Of a DNA stretch of 64,000 bases, positions 5,387 to 16,239 are shown piece by piece. The position numbers were made by a program, and so were the translations under genes. Location of the stretch: positions 1,674,001-1,738,000 of the forward strand of contig NZ_FNTA01000004.1 of NCBI RefSeq assembly GCF_900105055.1. Reading direction: 5' to 3'. Numbering within the stretch: position 1 is the first letter of the stretch; the number at the start of each line of letters is the position of its first letter. The notes beneath the pieces were generated by a model, which had not been told where the DNA came from, searched no databases, and saw only the letters and a program-made list of their open reading frames with translations. Origin of the DNA: Amycolatopsis lurida (GTDB lineage Bacteria > Actinomycetota > Actinomycetes > Mycobacteriales > Pseudonocardiaceae).

Positions 5387-8300
5387 TCACCGCGTCGGGG
5401 TCCGGATCGCTCGGGCGAGGTCCAGCGCGTCGACGTGGTGCGGGTCCTCAGCCAGCAGCGCGGTCAACCGGTCAACCGCGCGTGCGTGCTGCCCGTCGAG
5501 AATGTCGAGCTGCGCCCGCAAGAAACCTGTACGGCGCAGCCGCGTGGCGGCCGGATCCTCGGTGAACAACAACATCGACGGCAGCGAAGTCGCGAAGTAG
5601 TCCACGACCGGCGGGCTCGCCTCCACCGTGTCGCAGAAGGCTCGCAACGCCTCGGTGAGCCGGTCGGCTTCCTCGGTGCGACCCAGCCTGCGCAGCGCGA
5701 GCACCGAAGAGTAGGTCGCCTCGGAATAGGGCTGGGTACTCATCCCCAGGAAGTCGCCCTGCTGCGCGGCGGCCAGCTCCCAGGCCGCCCGGTCGCCCAG
5801 CACGTCACCTCGCATCAGGTGCAGCTGGGCGGTGTTCGCGAGCGGATGCCTTGCCTCGCTGAGAGATTCCGGCGGCGCAAAAGCATCGTCCACTGTGGAT
5901 CGGGCACGGCACAGCCGGTCCCATACGCGCAGCACGTCGCCCTCACCGCCCTCCCACGGTTGGAAGGTGCGGCCGAGCAGCAGTTCGCGGGCCTCGTCGA
6001 GCCGGTCGGCGGTGATCAGCAGTTGTGCGAGCTCAAGGGTGGCGTCGTCTCGTGTCTCGACCAGGGCGCGGTTCCGCAAGAGCCAGTCCAGCCGTTGCCC
6101 GGGCGGCACGCCGCGCCTCGCACTGAGCTGATCACGCTCGAAGACCAACCTGGCGTCGTCCCCCGCGACGGCGAGCGCGGAGTCGTAGGCCGCGCATGCC
6201 TGGTCGGCGTCACCGAGGTGGTTGAAGGCCGCGAGCCCCAGATTCCGCCAAACCACCGGGTCATCCGGGTCGATCGCGGCCGCGGCGTTCCAGGCCGCGC
6301 ACGCGTCGTCAGGGCGTCCGTTGGCGTAGAGCCAATGTCCGAGCAGCGCGCGAGCCCGCACGTCCGTGTCGTCGGAATCCGCCGCACGCTCCAACGTCAA
6401 CGCATCGTCCAGCCGTGAAGGAAAGCACCACGTGGCGTCGAGATTCTGCGCCCTCTGGACGGCTTCACGCGCCTCGTGGTCTCTGCCCAGCCTGCGCAGC
6501 ACCTCGGCTCGGTAGTACTCCAGCAACGGCCCGGCCGCTGTCTGTCCGATCGCGCGGGACCCCTCCCGCTCACGGGCGACGTCGAGCACCCGCAGCGCCG
6601 CCTCGTGCTCGCCAACGCCGATGTACTCCAGCGCGATGTCAAGGCAGGTCTGTGCGTCCGTCGTGAGAGGCAGGCCGAGCAGATCGCGCGTCCACCAGTC
6701 CAGGGGATCAAGCACATGGGTGGCTTCGGCAAGCTTTGTCGCTTGACCGTCTTTTCCGTTACGGCGCAACACGATCACCTGGAGCGCACGGGCTTGCAGG
6801 TGCTCCGGCTCGGTGCGCAGCACATCCTCGAGCCTGGCCAGTGCCTCCCTGTTCCGCCCGTGTGCGGCGTCGATGCGCGCCATGCGATAGCCCGCCGGTG
6901 CCCGCCACGCGCGCGCCCACGAGCTTGAGCCGTAGACGTCGTAGGCTTCCTCGGCCCGGTCGAGTCGCTCCAGGACTAGACCGAGGCAGTACAGCGCGGT
7001 CGTGTCGACGGGGTTCGCATTCAACGTCGCCAGCCGGGAAACGGCTACCCGCAGCAACTCCTCCGCCTCAGCGAAGTCACCACGCTGATACGCGAGCCCA
7101 GCGAGCCCGACATTGGCCGCGACATGCGCGGGATCGCGGCGCACTGCCTCACGCCAGTACAGCTCCGGCGAGCGCGTCGCGTGCCGGTACTGATCGAGGT
7201 GCGCGCCGATCACGGCCAGCTCTTCCACGGTCGGCACGTCATCGGGCGCGGCGGGCTCGTGCGCCGGGGTGACTTGATCGTCCGCACTGGGGACCAGGGA
7301 ATCCCACTCCACCAACAGTTCGTCACCGTGGAGGACGCGCAGCACGAGTCGATCAGCGGGCCCCGTCAGCGGGACGCTCTCCTGGAAGGGCTTGCCCGGC
7401 GCGATGTCGGCGCGTACCTCGGCGATCTCGGTCCCAGTGCCGTCAACGAGCGACAAGCGGCATCCGGGGCGGTCAACCGTCACGGCGACTCCGACCCGCG
7501 CGCTCGTTCCCCGCAGGTCCACCCGCGCCGCGGCGTCCACGGTCGCCGCCTGCACCGGCCCGATTTCCTGAATCGGATACCAGAACTGGGAAAACACCTT
7601 CGTCTCCCCGGGCGCGATGAAGGAGAAGTCCGGCTGGTTGTCGGTGAACACCCCGGCCATCAATTCGACGTAGGCCGAACCGTCATCGGTCAGATTGCGG
7701 CCCCACGCATCACCGAACTCCGAAGCGCCCCAAGTCCACTGCTTCTTCCCGACAGCGATCTGCCGATCGGCGACGTGCACGAACCCGGCCCGCGCGGCAT
7801 GGTCATAGCCACCGAAGAATGCTTCCTTCCTGCCCACACACATGTACGAGGTCGGCACCGGGATGTTGCGATACCAGTCAAGGCGGTCCCCGCGGACCTG
7901 TACCCCACCGGCGACCGTGTCGACCTCGTCGTGCCGGGCCGGGTAGTCGACTCCGTAGTAGGCCCGATCCGCGGCGGGGAAGCCGGTCGTCGCGCGCTTG
8001 GCGTGATCGGCGACCACCCGCACGTCTCGTGGGAAGAACGACTGGTAATTCTCATCCGCCCGCGCGGCGATATTGGTCCACCACAAGAACGTCCGGGTCC
8101 GCTCGCCACGGTTGTACAGCCGCACCCGAAGCTCCAGGACGGCGTTGTCGGGCCGCATCCGGACGCCGTGCATCCCCTTCATCCGGTCGAAGGGGTCGTG
8201 GTCGGAGCACCACACGGTCACGGCGCCATCGGCCTCGTGCTCGATCTCGACGTCGGTCGGCAGGAACGTGGCGGGGCGATGGTGCTGCGGCCAGTTGAAC

Positions 8301-8793: not shown

Positions 8794-9660
8794 ATGCTGA
8801 TGCCCGATGGCTTCCCAGGTCAGCGGTTGCGCGTGCTGCCGCGGCCGCTGGTGGCGTCGGCCCTGCGCAGGGCCCCGACCTCGGGCCTGCTCGTCACCGA
8901 CGCCGGGTACTTCCCCAGCGCGGCCAACCACGGCATGCACCGCCCGCGCAGCGCACCGGAAGCCATCGTGATCGTCTGCACCGACGGGGTCGGGTACTGC
9001 GAGGCCGACGGCAGAGTGAGCGTGATCAGGCCGGGAAATGCCCTGGTCCTGCCCCCATCCCGTCCGCACTTCTACTGGGCGGACTCGCGTGCCCCCTGGA
9101 CGATCTGGTGGCTGCACGCCGCGGGTTCCCAGGTCTCGGAGCTGCTCACGGTCGTCACGCCGGGCGGCGGAGAAGCCATCATCGAGGTGCGCGACGTCTA
9201 CCGGGCCGTCTCGGCGATCGACGACGCCATCGGCTTCCTCGAGCGGGATGAGACCTTCCCGCACCTTATCTCGGCCTCCGGCGCGGGCTGGACCTTGCTG
9301 GCGCAGCTGGCCGCGGACGCACTGACCGAAGCCCACCAGCCCACCGAGCCGGTTCGCCAGGCGCAGGAGTACCTGCGGCACAACTTCGCGAAGCCGGTGA
9401 TCGTCAAAGAGCTCGCGCGCACGGCGGGCCTATCGCCCTCGCACTTCGCGGCCCTGTTCCGGATGGCGGCGGGCTGCGGCGTGGTCGAATACGCCAAGCG
9501 CCTGCGGATGGCCCGAGCGCGCGAGCTGCTCGTCACCACGTCCCGCGACATCTCCGAGATCGCCAGGACCATCGGCTACAACGACGCGTTCTACTTCTCG
9601 CGCACTTTCCGCAGAGAACACGGGTGCAGCCCCAGCGAGTACCGACGCGGGAAGAACTAG
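8794..9660 (+). CDS. AraC-family transcriptional regulator
   Basis: Sugar-responsive type regulator, 288 aa. The N-terminal half resembles the AraC cupin ligand-binding domain (TDGVGYCEADGRVSVIRPGNALVLPPSRPHFYWAD, read across about residues 65-100). The C-terminal 100 residues carry the paired helix-turn-helix: VIVKELARTAGLSPSHFAAL and RDISEIARTIGYNDAFYFSR, ending CSPSEYRRG. In-frame ATGs at 8713, 8737 and 8794 are possible. I chose 8794 because family similarity starts there, but none has a strong ribosome-binding site. It faces the DUF5107 gene and is the likely regulator of the glycan locus (inference). Confidence 0.88.
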   Translation: MLMPDGFPGQRLRVLPRPLVASALRRAPTSGLLVTDAGYFPSAANHGMHRPRSAPEAIVIVCTDGVGYCEADGRVSVIRPGNALVLPPSRPHFYWADSRAPWTIWWLHAAGSQVSELLTVVTPGGGEAIIEVRDVYRAVSAIDDAIGFLERDETFPHLISASGAGWTLLAQLAADALTEAHQPTEPVRQAQEYLRHNFAKPVIVKELARTAGLSPSHFAALFRMAAGCGVVEYAKRLRMARARELLVTTSRDISEIARTIGYNDAFYFSRTFRREHGCSPSEYRRGKN

Positions 9661-9841
9661 CGCCCCTCTTACTTGCCGGTCTTCCGCGCCGCGGCGGCGA
9701 TCTCCGGAACCCGTGCTCGGTGACCGGACACGAACCGATATCGACAGGCCGTTCGACGCAGCCGTCATGATGCTCCCTGCCGCTGGTGAGCCACGAGGGC
9801 CACCTTGTGACCGCGGGCATGGATCGAGGACCATCGCCGGT

Positions 9842-12013
9842 ATGCGAAGACGTGTTCAACGGCGTCGCCGACTGGCTGTCCTGTGGTGGACCGCTTGGCT
9901 CGCCCTCCTCGCCGTTCTCGGTTCGGTGCTTTACTTCCTGTTCCGCGACGGCTTGCAGGTGGCGGCCAACATGGCCCAGCTGATCTCCGTGGCGCTTGCC
10001 CTTCTTCCTTTGCTCTGGGCGTTGGTCGTGTGGCGCCGCCGCACCGTCCGGCTGCCCGACCCCGAGGAGCTCGCGAAGGCGGTGGTGTACCTCGCAGACC
10101 GTGTGCAAAGGCAGTGGATCGAGGATGCGCGCACGTGGCACACCGGCGTCCTTCCCGTGTGCTGGAAGGTCACAGGCCGCAGGAAGCTGATGGACCACCT
10201 CGGCCAGGTGACAGACCTGGACCTCGACGAGCTCGCGGTGGACAAGGGCGCCCTCGATTCCCTCGCGTGCAACTTCCCGATGCTGTTCCAGCGCCGCCTG
10301 ATTCTGCTCGGCGCGTCCGGGACGGGCAAGACCTCCCTCGCGGTCCTCCTGCTGCTGAAACTGCTGGAAAACCGGTCGCAGAACGATCCCGTCCCGGTGT
10401 TCCTCACCGCGTCACGGTGGGAGGTCGCGGAGGACCGGTCACTGCGCGAGTGGCTGACCGACGAGCTGTGCCGCCTCTATCCCGGACTGACCGACCCGGA
10501 ACACGGCGGCCCGGGGACACCGGAAGAACTGGTTCGCAGTCAGCGCGTCATCCCCTTCATCGACGGTCTGGACGACCTGCCCGAGCGGGTTCAACGGCAC
10601 TTCTTCTCGACGCTGAACAACTCGCTGGCCATGGGCGACGCCCTGGTGCTGACCTGTCACACGAAGGAGTACCGCGACCTGGTGGAGACCACTGGGAAGG
10701 TCATTCCAGGCGCCGTGGTGCTGGAATCGATGCCCATCGATCCGCAGCACGCGCGCGAATATCTCGCGATCTCTTCGGACGACGTGGGGGACGTGGTGGT
10801 CGACGCCCTCATCCCCGCTGACGGCGACCTCAGCCGGACCCCGGACCAGGTGAACGCCCATATGACCAGGGCATTGGACCTGTGGCTGTTCCGCACCGTC
10901 TACCGCGACGGCGACCGTGATCCGTCGGAACTCCTCGATCCGAACGTGAACCGCGATCCCGAGACTCTCCGGGCGCACATGCTCGCCCATGTCATCCCGG
11001 CGCTGATCAGGAATAGACCACCCAGCACTCACTCGCACGAGCGGTTCCGACCAAGCAGACGCTACGAGCCGGACCAGGTCCGGTCATGGCTCGGGTATCT
11101 GGCCCACCGGTGCACCAACAGGACCAGTCACCAGGAGAAGCAACGCCGAGAGCTCCTGTGGTGGTACGTCGCCGCCACCGTGAACGGCCCGTCGCGCACC
11201 ATCAAACTGTCAGTGGCTGTCTTCACTGCCATCGCGACGACGATCATCACCGCCGGAATCGTGTCCGGCGCTGACCTCGGCGTCGCCGGATCCATCGGCT
11301 TTTTCGGCATCGCCTTGTCCTACACCTGGATGGTCGCCGCGAGCACCGACACCCACTTCGCCAGGTGGCGAGGAGAAGAGCCGGGAATCGTGGCAGGGCT
11401 ACGCAGCCACGTCCTAGCGGTGATGACCATCCTCGGGTTCACAGGCGGTGTGGGCGTCGCGGGCTACACCTTCATCCTCACAATGAACGCCATCTTCGGA
11501 AGCTCGGAGCGGGAAAGCGCCGATGCCGCGACATCATCGGACATCGCGGTCTTGCTCGCCGTGCCCCTGCTGTTCCTGGCGGCCTCCGCCCTCAACCAGG
11601 TCCTGGCAGTGCCGACCTCGGGCATCGACAACCTCACCTCGATGACGGTCTGGCGTTCCGCTCGACGCGTCACTCTCATCCAGGTGGCGGTCGCCACGGC
11701 CGCCGGAGCCGCGGGCACGCTCGCGATCTGCGCCCGCATGGACGCGCCGGCCTTCGCGACGGTGACGGTCACCATCGCCGGGGCCGGCATCATCGGCTTG
11801 CCGGCAGGCCTCCTGCCCGGGCGGCACCACGCATGGCCTGCCTACGTCATCGCCGTCGACCACCTCGCCAGGACCGGCCGACTGCCACGGAACCTCATAC
11901 GTTTCCTGGACGACGCGCACCGCCTCGGCCTGCTGCGGGCGGTCGGGCCCGCCTACCAGTTCCGCCACGCCGAACTCGAGGACCACCTAGCCGCCCACTA
12001 CCAGCAGCAATAG
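9842..12013 (+). CDS. Membrane-associated NACHT-domain NTPase
   Basis: STAND-class NTPase of 723 aa with an unknown trigger. Two hydrophobic helices at about residues 10-60 anchor the N-terminus. The NACHT domain has the P-loop GASGTGKTS at residues 157-165 and a Walker B-like FIDGLDDLPE near 240. From about residue 445 there are several further membrane helices (for example TIKLSVAVFTAIATTIITAG and ATVTVTIAGAGIIGLPAG), followed by a soluble tail (FLDDAHRLGLLRAVGPAYQF) that resembles the end of other actinobacterial NACHT-TM proteins. ATG 9842 starts the recognisable protein. Members of this superfamily can act in defence or signalling; here this is inference only. Confidence 0.85.
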   Translation: MRRRVQRRRRLAVLWWTAWLALLAVLGSVLYFLFRDGLQVAANMAQLISVALALLPLLWALVVWRRRTVRLPDPEELAKAVVYLADRVQRQWIEDARTWHTGVLPVCWKVTGRRKLMDHLGQVTDLDLDELAVDKGALDSLACNFPMLFQRRLILLGASGTGKTSLAVLLLLKLLENRSQNDPVPVFLTASRWEVAEDRSLREWLTDELCRLYPGLTDPEHGGPGTPEELVRSQRVIPFIDGLDDLPERVQRHFFSTLNNSLAMGDALVLTCHTKEYRDLVETTGKVIPGAVVLESMPIDPQHAREYLAISSDDVGDVVVDALIPADGDLSRTPDQVNAHMTRALDLWLFRTVYRDGDRDPSELLDPNVNRDPETLRAHMLAHVIPALIRNRPPSTHSHERFRPSRRYEPDQVRSWLGYLAHRCTNRTSHQEKQRRELLWWYVAATVNGPSRTIKLSVAVFTAIATTIITAGIVSGADLGVAGSIGFFGIALSYTWMVAASTDTHFARWRGEEPGIVAGLRSHVLAVMTILGFTGGVGVAGYTFILTMNAIFGSSERESADAATSSDIAVLLAVPLLFLAASALNQVLAVPTSGIDNLTSMTVWRSARRVTLIQVAVATAAGAAGTLAICARMDAPAFATVTVTIAGAGIIGLPAGLLPGRHHAWPAYVIAVDHLARTGRLPRNLIRFLDDAHRLGLLRAVGPAYQFRHAELEDHLAAHYQQQ

Positions 12014-12175: not shown

Positions 12176-13576
12176 TCAGCCCTTGCGGGGGACTATGAGA
12201 ATGTGGCTCATGTTGGCGCTGTGCGTTGAGGTGGATCCGCGTGAGTCGGTCAGGTCCTCCACCGCGCCCTGTACCCCGCCGTCCATCCCGTCTACCCACT
12301 TCACCATGACGTAGGCGCTGAACCGCGGGTCACAGTCGGCGCGGACGGTGAAGTCGGGCAGGTGCAGGGGTACGTGATGGCGGTGCACCGCGTACGACAT
12401 TTCGCGGAGTTCCCCGGTAGCCCGGTCCTTGTGGCAGACCTCGTTGCCCTTCCACTGGGTGACGTACAGAGTGAAGGTGGCCGTCGACGCGGTCGGGGCG
12501 GGCGTGTCGCAGAGCTTGTCCTTCTGCGGATAGCAGACCTGGAATTGGGTATCGGCGACGACGCTGAGGTGGGTGAATCCCGGCGCGAAGGTGACGGACC
12601 TGAGTACCGGCTCCCGGGCGATCATGCGGGGAGCCGGTCCCACGTGCAGGAGGCCACGTGGCACCGCACTCTGTGCGGGCGCGCCTGTGGTCGTGTTGTC
12701 CACGGACGTGTCGGCGACCTCGATCCGCCCGCTGTCCAGCCGGAACTGCGCGTCGAGGTCTTCCCTGAGCGCGGCGGCGCGGACGTAGGCGGTGCAGGCG
12801 ACTGTGGTGGCCACACCGGGATGCAGCAGGAAGCGGGTGGTCAGTTGCACCTCTTCCTTCTCCCGCTCCGACGACGCCCCTTCCTGCAGGATGTTCTGTC
12901 CGGTCACGAAGTTCTGCTCACCACCGGGCCATCTGCACCGCACCTCGTTGTCGAACAGCGAGCGGTGGGTCGCCGAGCTCGCGCGCATCACCGACACCAC
13001 GTACGCGGTCTGCGTCGTCGACATCTCCAGCTCGACGCTGCCCAGCGCCACCACCTCATGATCGGGCCTCCAGGATCCACCAGGCACTGCCCTGGGCATC
13101 CGCGGCGCGAATATGCGACGTGGTGCGAAGTCGTATCGGACGACGGCGTCGGCGGGCGCGGCGGCGGGCACGGGTGTGGAGGGGCCCGCATCATCGAAGG
13201 CCGTGCTCGACGGGATCACGATCGCCACGAGGACCGCGGCGGCGGCCGCGAGTGATCGTGGGCGCCGCCGGCCAGAGCCGGAGGCCAGGTCCGGAGTTTC
13301 GACTGAGGAAACCGGTGTCTCCACGGTGATCTTGCCGTTGGCCACATGCCAGTGCCGTAGCAAATCGGCGAGGTCTTGGTCAGTCGCCCCACACGCGGTG
13401 GCGATTGCGGCAATCGTCCGATAATCGGGTGGAACCGTTACTCCAGAGCAGTATCGATGCAGAGTGGAACTGCTGATATGTGCTTTTCGGCCAAGATCTG
13501 AATAGCTCAGCCCGCTGCGCTCCTTGAGAGCAGCGAGAAGTTGCGCAAGCTCGCTGCGCGTGCTCGACACATCCAT
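12176..13576 (-). CDS. Membrane-bound XRE-type regulator with extracytoplasmic paralogue domain
   Basis: Three-part protein of 466 aa. Residues 1-70 are an XRE/Cro-like helix-turn-helix (LSYSDLGRKAHISSSTLHRY, then ATACGATDQDLADLLRHW). A single membrane helix follows near residues 100-120 (RSLAAAAAVLVAIVIPSS). The rest should lie outside the membrane. That outer part is strongly similar, nearly end to end, to the secreted protein encoded divergently at 13876-14913; both contain RSLFDNEVRC, VTGQNIL, LHPGVATT or VHPGVATT, HVPLHLPDF, and DGMDGGVQG or NGMDGGVQG. ATG 13576 is preceded by GGGGAGGG at about seven bases. I infer a membrane-tethered DNA-binding sensor; ligand and targets are unknown. 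Confidence 0.85.
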   Translation of the reverse strand: MDVSSTRSELAQLLAALKERSGLSYSDLGRKAHISSSTLHRYCSGVTVPPDYRTIAAIATACGATDQDLADLLRHWHVANGKITVETPVSSVETPDLASGSGRRRPRSLAAAAAVLVAIVIPSSTAFDDAGPSTPVPAAAPADAVVRYDFAPRRIFAPRMPRAVPGGSWRPDHEVVALGSVELEMSTTQTAYVVSVMRASSATHRSLFDNEVRCRWPGGEQNFVTGQNILQEGASSEREKEEVQLTTRFLLHPGVATTVACTAYVRAAALREDLDAQFRLDSGRIEVADTSVDNTTTGAPAQSAVPRGLLHVGPAPRMIAREPVLRSVTFAPGFTHLSVVADTQFQVCYPQKDKLCDTPAPTASTATFTLYVTQWKGNEVCHKDRATGELREMSYAVHRHHVPLHLPDFTVRADCDPRFSAYVMVKWVDGMDGGVQGAVEDLTDSRGSTSTHSANMSHILIVPRKG

Positions 13577-13875
13577 CGACCCTCCCCAAGTCTCCGGTGC
13601 CGCGAGCCAGTATGACACCGTCCCACACCCTCCGGGAAACCCCTGATCAGGCCCATTTCACGCATGCCGGGACGACACACGTCCCGGCAACCCTTGCCGC
13701 CGCTACCCGTCACCCGACATGGTTGTTCCGCACCCCTGGTGAACCGTGAATCAAATTCACTTCAGGATCAGCCGTAGCCACCGAAACTCGACACCTCGCC
13801 CCCTATCAAGGGGCCATGTGTTATCGCCGAAACAGTTCGTCACGCTAAATTCTCACTGGTGAAAGGAGACCGCGG
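13577..13875. promoter_or_regulatory. Divergent control region with GTGAAT-N3-ATTCAC dyad
   Basis: The gap between the XRE sensor and its secreted paralogue. It contains a perfect inverted repeat GTGAATCAAATTCAC at 13746-13760 and a smaller TCAC-TG-GTGA dyad at 13853-13862 overlapping the AAAGGAG ribosome-binding site of the secreted gene. These are natural candidates for operators bound by the adjacent XRE domain. Binding is inferred from position and symmetry only. Confidence 0.45.
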
Positions 13876-14913
13876 GTGAGGCGAATACTGTCCTTCATTC
13901 TCGGTGCCGTGGTGCTGGTCGTGCTCGCCCCGGCGGCGACCGCGAGCACTGCCACCCATGTCAAGTTCACGCCGCAACAGGTGCTCGCGCCGAAGGTGCC
14001 CGAGACGAAGCCGGGTGAGCCGGTGAAGTTCGACCAGGAGGTCAAGAAGCTGGGCAGCGTGGACCTGGAAATGTCGGCGACGCAGACCGCCTACGTCAGA
14101 TCGGTGATGCGCGCGAACTCGGCCACCTATCGCTCGCTGTTCGACAACGAGGTGCGGTGCACCTGGCCTGGCGGCGAACAGAGCTACGTAACGGGACAGA
14201 ATATCCTCCAGAAGGGCGCATCCCTGGAGCCGGAGAAGGAGGACGTCCAGCTCACCACCCGCTTCCTGGTGCACCCCGGTGTCGCCACGACGGTCACCTG
14301 CACCGCGTACGTCCGTGCCGCCACGATGCGCAAGAACCTCGACGCCCAGTTCCAGCTGCACGACGGATTCCTCGAGTTCGCGGCCACCTCCGTGCACAAC
14401 ACCACGGCCGGTCTTCCCGCCCAGCGCGCCACACCCCGTGGCCTCGTGCGTGTCGGACCGGACCCCGAGGTCGTGGCGCGTGAGCCCGCGTTGCCGCACT
14501 TCACCCTCGCGCCAGGCTTCACGAAACTCAGCGTCTTCGCCGACACCGAATACAAGACCTGTTACCCGGTGAAGGACAAGGACTGCACCCAGCCACCGGC
14601 CTCGACGGCCACCTTCACCCTCTACGTCAACCAGTGGAACGGCGACAAACTCTGCCAGACCAGCAACGCCACCACGACGACCCGCCAAATGTCCTACTCG
14701 GTGCACCACCATTACGTGCCGCTGCACCTGCCCGACTTCAAGGTCCGGGCCGACTGCGAACAGCGGTTCAACGCCTACGTCCTGGTGAAATGGCAGAACG
14801 GCATGGACGGCGGAGTGCAGGGAACCGCGGTAGGCCTGCCCGACTCACGCGGGTCGACCACGACCCACAACGCCGACATGAGCCACGTCTTCGTCGTCCC
14901 CCTCAAAAGCTGA
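13876..14913 (+). CDS. Secreted protein, paralogue of the outer domain of the XRE sensor
   Basis: Unrecognised exported protein of 345 aa. GTG start with AAAGGAG eight bases upstream. The signal peptide is clear (RRILSFILGAVVLVVLAP, cleavage expected after ATAS near residue 24). The mature part is a single domain collinear with residues about 150-466 of the neighbouring membrane regulator, with conserved Cys in RSLFDNEVRC, TCTAYVRA, KTCYPVKDKDC, KLCQTS and RADC, which suggests disulfides. No enzymatic motif is evident. The divergent arrangement suggests that the regulator controls, or senses the same ligand as, this protein. Confidence 0.85.
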   Translation: MRRILSFILGAVVLVVLAPAATASTATHVKFTPQQVLAPKVPETKPGEPVKFDQEVKKLGSVDLEMSATQTAYVRSVMRANSATYRSLFDNEVRCTWPGGEQSYVTGQNILQKGASLEPEKEDVQLTTRFLVHPGVATTVTCTAYVRAATMRKNLDAQFQLHDGFLEFAATSVHNTTAGLPAQRATPRGLVRVGPDPEVVAREPALPHFTLAPGFTKLSVFADTEYKTCYPVKDKDCTQPPASTATFTLYVNQWNGDKLCQTSNATTTTRQMSYSVHHHYVPLHLPDFKVRADCEQRFNAYVLVKWQNGMDGGVQGTAVGLPDSRGSTTTHNADMSHVFVVPLKS

Positions 14914-15126: not shown

Positions 15127-15612
15127 ATGCCAAGAAAAACACTGGCGATCATTGCGGCCGCGTGCGCAATGGCAGCGACGGTCTCGTTCGGCGCCACCAC
15201 GGCGTCCGCCGCGAGCCGTGTCGCGCCATCTGCTGCGGCCGCCGCCGGAATCCAGGGGTCTCCGAAATGTTCCGGCACGGAATCATACGGCCCCATCCGC
15301 TACCAGGTGTGCGTCCGGTACAACTGCGATAGCAATTCGTGCTTCCACCGCGGATACCTCGGCGTGGCCAACACTGCCACGAGCGCTCGCACGGTCACCT
15401 GGGACCTGGACTGGAGCTTGATCGGTGCCCCGTGGCGCGACGACGACCGCGGCGTCGTGACACTCGCCGCCGGTCAGCAGAAAACCATCTATTCCCGCTA
15501 CACCTACGAAACCTCACCCTGCGGTTTCACGGGACAGAGAAAACTGACCGTCGCATACAGCTCTGGCACAAGCGCACCCATCACAGTGGAAGACTTCATG
15601 GCATGCCGATGA
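15127..15612 (+). CDS. Small secreted cysteine-containing protein
   Basis: Exported protein of 161 aa that I do not recognise. CAGGAG upstream supports ATG 15127. Signal peptide: KTLAIIAAACAMAATVSFG with a likely cut after ASA near residue 34. The mature chain has six Cys (PKCSG, YQVCVRYNC, NSCFHRG, SPCGF, MACR), probably paired in disulfides, and beta-rich sequence. It is the second of three consecutive plus-strand genes for secreted proteins; spacing over 200 bp from the first argues for its own promoter. Confidence 0.72.
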   Translation: MPRKTLAIIAAACAMAATVSFGATTASAASRVAPSAAAAAGIQGSPKCSGTESYGPIRYQVCVRYNCDSNSCFHRGYLGVANTATSARTVTWDLDWSLIGAPWRDDDRGVVTLAAGQQKTIYSRYTYETSPCGFTGQRKLTVAYSSGTSAPITVEDFMACR

Positions 15613-15720
15613 ATGCTCTGTACGTTCACCCTTTCCGGTCGACCTGCGGCCGTTTCGGACAATCGTTCACCTGCGGGCTCACACCCGGGGCCCTCAGAAC
15701 TCGAGTTCGGGGAGGAAGTT

Positions 15721-16239
15721 GTGAAGGCAAAGGCATTCTTCCGGGCGGCGACTGTAGCGCTCGGCATTGGGGCCGCTGTGCTGGCTTCGGCGCCCGTGGC
15801 CACTGCGAGGCCGTCGGACGTGCTCGCCCGCTATGCGGCGGACGGCATCGACGTGGGCCGGCTACCCGCCGGGTACTCGGTCGTCGGCGACCAGATCCTG
15901 TGGCAACGGCAGACCGAGGACGGCGTGCTCAGCACCGGGCTCGGCACGTTCTGCTCGCTCGGCTTCCTCTGCCTGTACCGGGCGACGGGCACCACCGGCA
16001 CGCTGTGGTTCACCAACGATCGGCAGCGCATGCACAATCTGGGGAATTACAGCTTCAATGACGCGACCCGCAGCTGGTGGAACAACTCCAGCTACGACGC
16101 GATCTGGTACTTCCACACCAGCGGCTCGCCCAACCCGTACGTGTGCATGAACGCAGGCGATCGCGTGAGAAACCCGCCTGCTTCGCAGCAACGGCAGGCA
16201 TCGCTCGCCTACGTTTACCCCAACTCCACCACCTGCTGA
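15721..16239 (+). CDS. Secreted peptidase-inhibitor I36-like protein
   Basis: Exported protein of 172 aa. The GTG start at 15721 is fixed by GGGGAGGAAG just upstream. The signal peptide is KAKAFFRAATVALGIGAAVL, cut after ATA near residue 30. The C-terminal half has the I36/SMPI-like pattern: FCSLGFLCLYR, a Gly-rich strand, NLGNYSFNDATRSWWNNSS and a final Cys. The family includes secreted metalloprotease inhibitors of streptomycetes and many small exported proteins of unknown function, so inhibition is only a possibility here. Confidence 0.75.
   Translation: MKAKAFFRAATVALGIGAAVLASAPVATARPSDVLARYAADGIDVGRLPAGYSVVGDQILWQRQTEDGVLSTGLGTFCSLGFLCLYRATGTTGTLWFTNDRQRMHNLGNYSFNDATRSWWNNSSYDAIWYFHTSGSPNPYVCMNAGDRVRNPPASQQRQASLAYVYPNSTTC

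Follow-up and report, generated by a model that had tools for sequence, protein, structure and literature searches.

A putative membrane-tethered XRE regulator of Amycolatopsis whose outer domain closely copies a divergently encoded secreted protein

For most transmembrane one-component regulators we know of no identified signal for the outer domain. The locus described here, from a window of 64,000 nucleotides (the whole stretch of DNA analysed) of Amycolatopsis lurida, raises the question of what such a regulator senses when its neighbouring gene points to the signal: the sensor copies, or swaps places with, a secreted protein. The locus thereby offers a concrete route by which ligands might be sought for numerous orphan actinobacterial HTH-TM regulators. 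It is also a first clue to what the outer domain (here called X) and the I36-like proteins encoded near it do. The features of the locus are collected in Table 1.

Table 1. Features of the locus, in window coordinates
Feature	Position	Strand	Basis
Membrane-tethered regulator gene, 466 aa	12176..13576	minus	ORF; HTH, linker, one hydrophobic segment, outer domain X
Outer domain X of regulator, residues 145-466	12179..13144	minus	all-beta, six conserved cysteines; alignment and model
Hydrophobic segment, approximately residues 109-126	13199..13252	minus	hydropathy; membrane anchor or signal-peptide-like
HTH_31 (XRE) DNA-binding domain, residues 9-72 of 466	13361..13552	minus	Pfam PF13560, E 1.3e-15
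Divergent intergenic region, 299 bp	13577..13875		putative shared promoter region
Inverted repeat TGCCGGGACG-N5-CGTCCCGGCA	13665..13689		best operator candidate
Dyad GTGAAT-CAA-ATTCAC	13746..13760		named in the first-pass annotation
Secreted 345-aa free copy of domain X	13876..14913	plus	ORF; signal peptide-like N-terminus
Secreted I36-like protein	15613..16239	plus	PF03995, E 3.9e-07; 0.7 kb downstream of free X

The regulator gene is read from an ATG at 13576; an alternative GTG start at 13618 would give 480 aa. The first-pass annotation, made from the sequence alone, described the product as an HTH, one membrane segment and an outer domain, and this layout was borne out. In a Pfam scan the N-terminal part matched HTH families only, with HTH_31 and HTH_3 as best matches. 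The same scan of the fusion gave no match to Trans_reg_C (the OmpR-type winged HTH of ToxR/CadC-type regulators), to an RsgI-type N-terminal anti-sigma domain or to the zinc protease domain of BlaR1/MecR1. An AlphaFold model of the 466-aa protein (pLDDT 82.3) has a five-helix HTH at residues 3-79, a low-confidence stretch at residues 84-142 that holds the hydrophobic segment and, beyond it, beta elements approximately the same as those of free X, which is itself modelled as an all-beta protein (mean pLDDT 88.9). One hydrophobic segment was found, with a Kyte-Doolittle value of 2.1; it is short and signal-peptide-like, and marginal on a simple scale. An RRRPR cluster precedes the segment. In an alignment of five fusions a conserved P-S-S-[TM]-A stretch follows it and resembles a signal-peptidase site as judged by eye rather than by a trained predictor.

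Tethered X (residues 164-479 in the 480-aa numbering) is 66% identical to the secreted 345-aa protein over 316 aa (E 4e-158), and RSLFDNEVRC occurs in both, in agreement with the nearly end-to-end resemblance reported at first pass. Orthologues of free X within Amycolatopsis are 87-94% identical. Six cysteines (C95, C142, C229, C237, C260 and C294 in the free protein) are common to its close relatives. All six are kept in the fusions and the RRRPR cluster lies before the hydrophobic segment, which together favour a location of tethered X outside the cell. Domain X is unannotated because, outside the HTH, neither protein matches Pfam or NCBIfam above cut-off. Among solved structures there was no whole-chain match for X, only beta-sandwich proteins of low TM-score such as PNGase F, and PADLOC gave no defence-system match for either X protein of the window. 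A third X paralogue in the same genome, 48% identical, is solitary (G000:C4:5960932-5961909, L037). Internal TGA codons in three X paralogues, considered as possible recoding, proved to be terminal stop codons.

Domain X is present in 35 of the 392 Pseudonocardiaceae genomes searched, mostly as solitary secreted proteins. The genome search also found the fusion with an adjacent free copy elsewhere: the divergent tethered/free pair occurs in four of the 392, all Amycolatopsis (the window genome, G019, G021 and A. roodepoortensis), intact and at a different site in each. The DNA common to these species is 2.76 kb long and approximately 92% identical, with borders close to the two genes, and no conserved flanking genes were found around the pair except for a single I36 gene shared by G019 and A. 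roodepoortensis. In G021 collinearity with the window, at 93% over 7 kb, breaks off precisely at window position 9660, the stop codon of an AraC-type gene, and the pair is located elsewhere; the sequence adjoining it there had no matching block in the other genomes. The region beyond 9660 is variable and may be an island. Given its different sites and dissimilar flanks, the pair sits in variable regions and behaves as a 2.76-kb module. In the window it is adjoined by a gene for a 766-aa NACHT-domain protein with predicted membrane segments (9713-12013, plus strand), which had no match in G019, G021, G002 or A. roodepoortensis and only a marginal PADLOC match.

Both X copies are maintained, with dN/dS values among the four pair-bearing species of 0.30-0.49 (fusion) and 0.20-0.28 (free copy). 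Within the fusion, selection is purifying on the HTH part as well as on X, and constraint is lowest in the linker/TM part. A tree groups the five tethered X domains, among them that of Actinosynnema sp. ALI-1.44, in a single clade (100/100 support) apart from the free copies; the clade has one old origin. Gene conversion between tethered and free X was rejected because the two copies differ by approximately 22-25% in DNA, against approximately 8% between orthologues, and because the tree separates them.

The partner of the tethered domain is not always its own copy. In A. thailandensis (L040) and two Allokutzneria (L041 and L042) the gene upstream of free X, on its strand, encodes a different HTH-TM protein with an I36-like outer domain. 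This domain scores above the Pfam cut-off in L041 and just below it in L040, and the N-terminal part of both proteins, which has no Pfam HTH match, is HTH-like by similarity to other such proteins. In Actinosynnema (L043) the roles are reversed: the gene for HTH-TM-X stands divergent to one for a secreted I36, and the latter protein shares 67% identity over 92 aa with the tethered I36 domain of L041. The L043 HTH-TM-X gene has a frameshift in the HTH region, around 7620-7640 of the draft assembly, that may be a sequencing error or decay. This swap of the tether between the X and I36 families is new here. I36 (PF03995) is the domain of the swapped partner proteins beside X, but X is distinct from it: neither fusion X nor free X matched PF03995 at E up to 1. 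At first pass the free and tethered copies were proposed to compete for one ligand or to dimerise with each other. With partners from two families in four related loci, the swap argues against a model limited to competition of identical copies, and neither their competition nor their dimerisation can hold as a general rule.

An I36 gene lies within approximately 2 kb of X in seven of eight close-clade loci (chance 0.2-0.9% per locus, figures that are not independent since the loci are related), and several of these genes differ from each other. The one in the window we treat as an associated gene, whose role we infer from this recurrence near X; between it and free X lies a gene for a secreted 161-aa protein with no Pfam match (15127-15612, plus strand). 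The HTH-TM-I36 regulator was found in eight genomes. In three of these the next gene encodes secreted X, once with a free I36 gene intervening; in two it encodes an SH3-like protein, in two a further I36, and in the remaining one there is no clear partner.

The HTH front end of the window fusion is also reused with other outer domains. Relatives with GH39/42-like barrels were found at 12 loci, with a neighbouring paralogue at none. The same front end occurs with PG_binding_1 and a lysozyme-like domain at seven loci, and secreted PG-binding genes adjoin five of these, a figure that is suggestive only, because PG-binding domains are common and it stands without a matched control. Outside the X family, the closest HTH (56%) belongs to a protein of the GH39/42-like type, and an exchange of outer domains may therefore have produced the window fusion. 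Of the 62 HTH_31 genes read in a census of the window genome, four encode an HTH and one TM together with a small outer domain. Only for the window fusion is a paralogue of this domain encoded next to it; a tandem of LacI genes was a false positive. Other HTH-TM proteins of this genome have small outer domains that are I36-like (L108 3590-4324) or, by eye, lectin-like (L090 3420-4421) and Ig-like (L104 3051-3938), and their genes have no neighbouring paralogues. A frame-broken relative lies at approximately G000:C2 71700 (L038 5672-6412); its HTH front end is 74% identical to that of the window fusion over 31 aa, and GH39/42-like outer-domain pieces follow out of frame.

The window regulator, of a kind present in some soil actinobacteria, belongs to a wider and shuffled set of regulators made of pieces of secreted proteins; these regulators probably inform DNA of what the secreted protein encounters outside. 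We put forward as doubtful the fuller proposal of a modular actinobacterial HTH-TM class, in which outer domains would come from one pool with the adjacent secreted proteins (X, I36, peptidoglycan-binding) and the tether would pass between X and I36. These two would then interact directly, and each regulator would sense outside the cell what it exports itself.

The first-pass annotation knew of no named system with this design, a statement that needs correction. Transmembrane transcription regulators (TTRs), which include the CadC/ToxR-like one-component systems, are a named general class in which single-pass forms are the commonest, according to the parts of PMC10269533 concerned. They share with the window protein the union of a DNA-binding domain and a membrane segment in one protein; the window regulator differs in having an XRE HTH_31 and an outer domain that copies a secreted neighbour, a design not described in those parts of the article. 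In Clostridium thermocellum, by the passages of PMC4711584 that treat the pair, the outer module of the membrane sensor RsgI6 is 57% identical to Xyn10D, the secreted enzyme it is thought to control. There too the outer sensor of a membrane regulator is a close copy of a secreted protein, but RsgI is an anti-sigma factor acting via SigI rather than a DNA-binding protein, and those passages do not report a divergent pair with the copied gene. BlaR1 has an extracellular sensor homologous to secreted class D beta-lactamases that meet the same ligand (PMC5957439). The likeness again lies in the outer sensor, whereas BlaR1 is a membrane protein without an HTH and signals via a zinc protease that destroys the repressor BlaI. 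The principle of a sensor that copies a secreted protein therefore already exists in RsgI6/Xyn10D and BlaR1. What would set the present system apart is direct DNA binding by an XRE domain, the divergent near copy and the exchange of the tether between X and I36. A literature search, with most subscription journals outside its coverage, found no XRE-TM-secreted-domain system in actinobacteria.

We favour, with a probability of about 0.45, a reading in which the 466-aa protein serves as a one-component transmembrane transcription regulator of the single-pass type and carries as its sensor a copy of the secreted protein it probably controls. This reading starts from what is observed: the architecture, paralogy, co-conservation, purifying selection, single old origin of the tethered clade, X-I36 gene association, tether swap and reuse of the HTH front end. 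The topology, target, signal transfer, direction of regulation and operator that we infer would fit together as follows. The target of secreted X, at or near the cell surface, would be part of the wall or matrix, or else a complex containing an I36-like protein, and tethered X would bind it as well from its place in the membrane. Occupancy would alter the state of the regulator, by oligomerisation or by cleavage beside the weak membrane segment; the HTH would then change transcription from the divergent gap, and sensor and secreted product would thereby be adjusted together. In favour of this reading we count the identity between the X domains, the retention of the pair in four species at different sites, the dN/dS values of both copies, the tethered clade, the six cysteines, the swap, the I36 genes near X in seven of eight loci, the reuse of the HTH front end with glycosidase-like and peptidoglycan-binding outer domains, and the RsgI6 and BlaR1 precedents. 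Against it we count the short segment, which could be a cleaved signal-like sequence, the narrow distribution of the pair, the uncertain operator and the want of an informative structural match for X.

The swap leaves two main options, a shared external target and direct sensing of the secreted partner. Under the latter, tethered X would bind its secreted neighbour (X-X or X-I36) and the regulator would count its own export or assembly state. X and I36 genes recur together whichever has the tether, as binding partners would, and the free partner is X itself in four species; yet the HTH-TM-I36 regulator also stands beside SH3-like secreted proteins, so a fixed X-I36 pair is not obligatory, and we hold direct sensing to be unlikely. 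The weakness of the hydrophobic segment and the conserved P-S-S-[TM]-A after it suggest another course, in which the segment would act like a signal sequence with a long cytoplasmic front, X would be freed by signal peptidase and the HTH by a further cut. For RsgI proteins a last step of release by proteolysis is known (PMC12203970), but the HTH-TM-I36 relatives do not have the motif, and both the eye-judged site and the simple scale weigh against release by cleavage, which we consider improbable. The least probable of the explanations is that shuffling joined HTH-TM to X by chance beside the parent gene, giving a protein that does little or regulates unrelated genes. The pair is narrowly distributed, domain exchange is common in this HTH-TM group, and the Actinosynnema frameshift and the frame-broken L038 also count in its favour; however, purifying selection acts on both parts of the fusion, HTH and X, in the four species, where the pair sits at differing sites, and the matching of sensor and neighbour recurs with other domains.

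If a shared target is sensed, the response would be delivered in the divergent gap, which measures exactly 299 bp from start to start, as first reported, and has a mean column identity of 90% across the four species. The GTGAAT-N3-ATTCAC dyad to which the first-pass annotation drew attention is present there but is a weak operator candidate: its left arm is broken in G019 and G021, leaving it intact in two of the four species, and some 6-3-6 dyad arises in 157 of 2000 dinucleotide shuffles of the gap (8%). The 10-bp inverted repeat at 13665-13689 is perfect in the window, has one mismatch in A. roodepoortensis and G021 and is degraded in G019; repeats like it arose in 7 of 2000 shuffles. It is the better candidate for a putative operator. 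In Actinosynnema, the divergent gap that separates HTH-TM-X from secreted I36 holds a perfect 17-bp inverted repeat of its own (L043 7294-7332).
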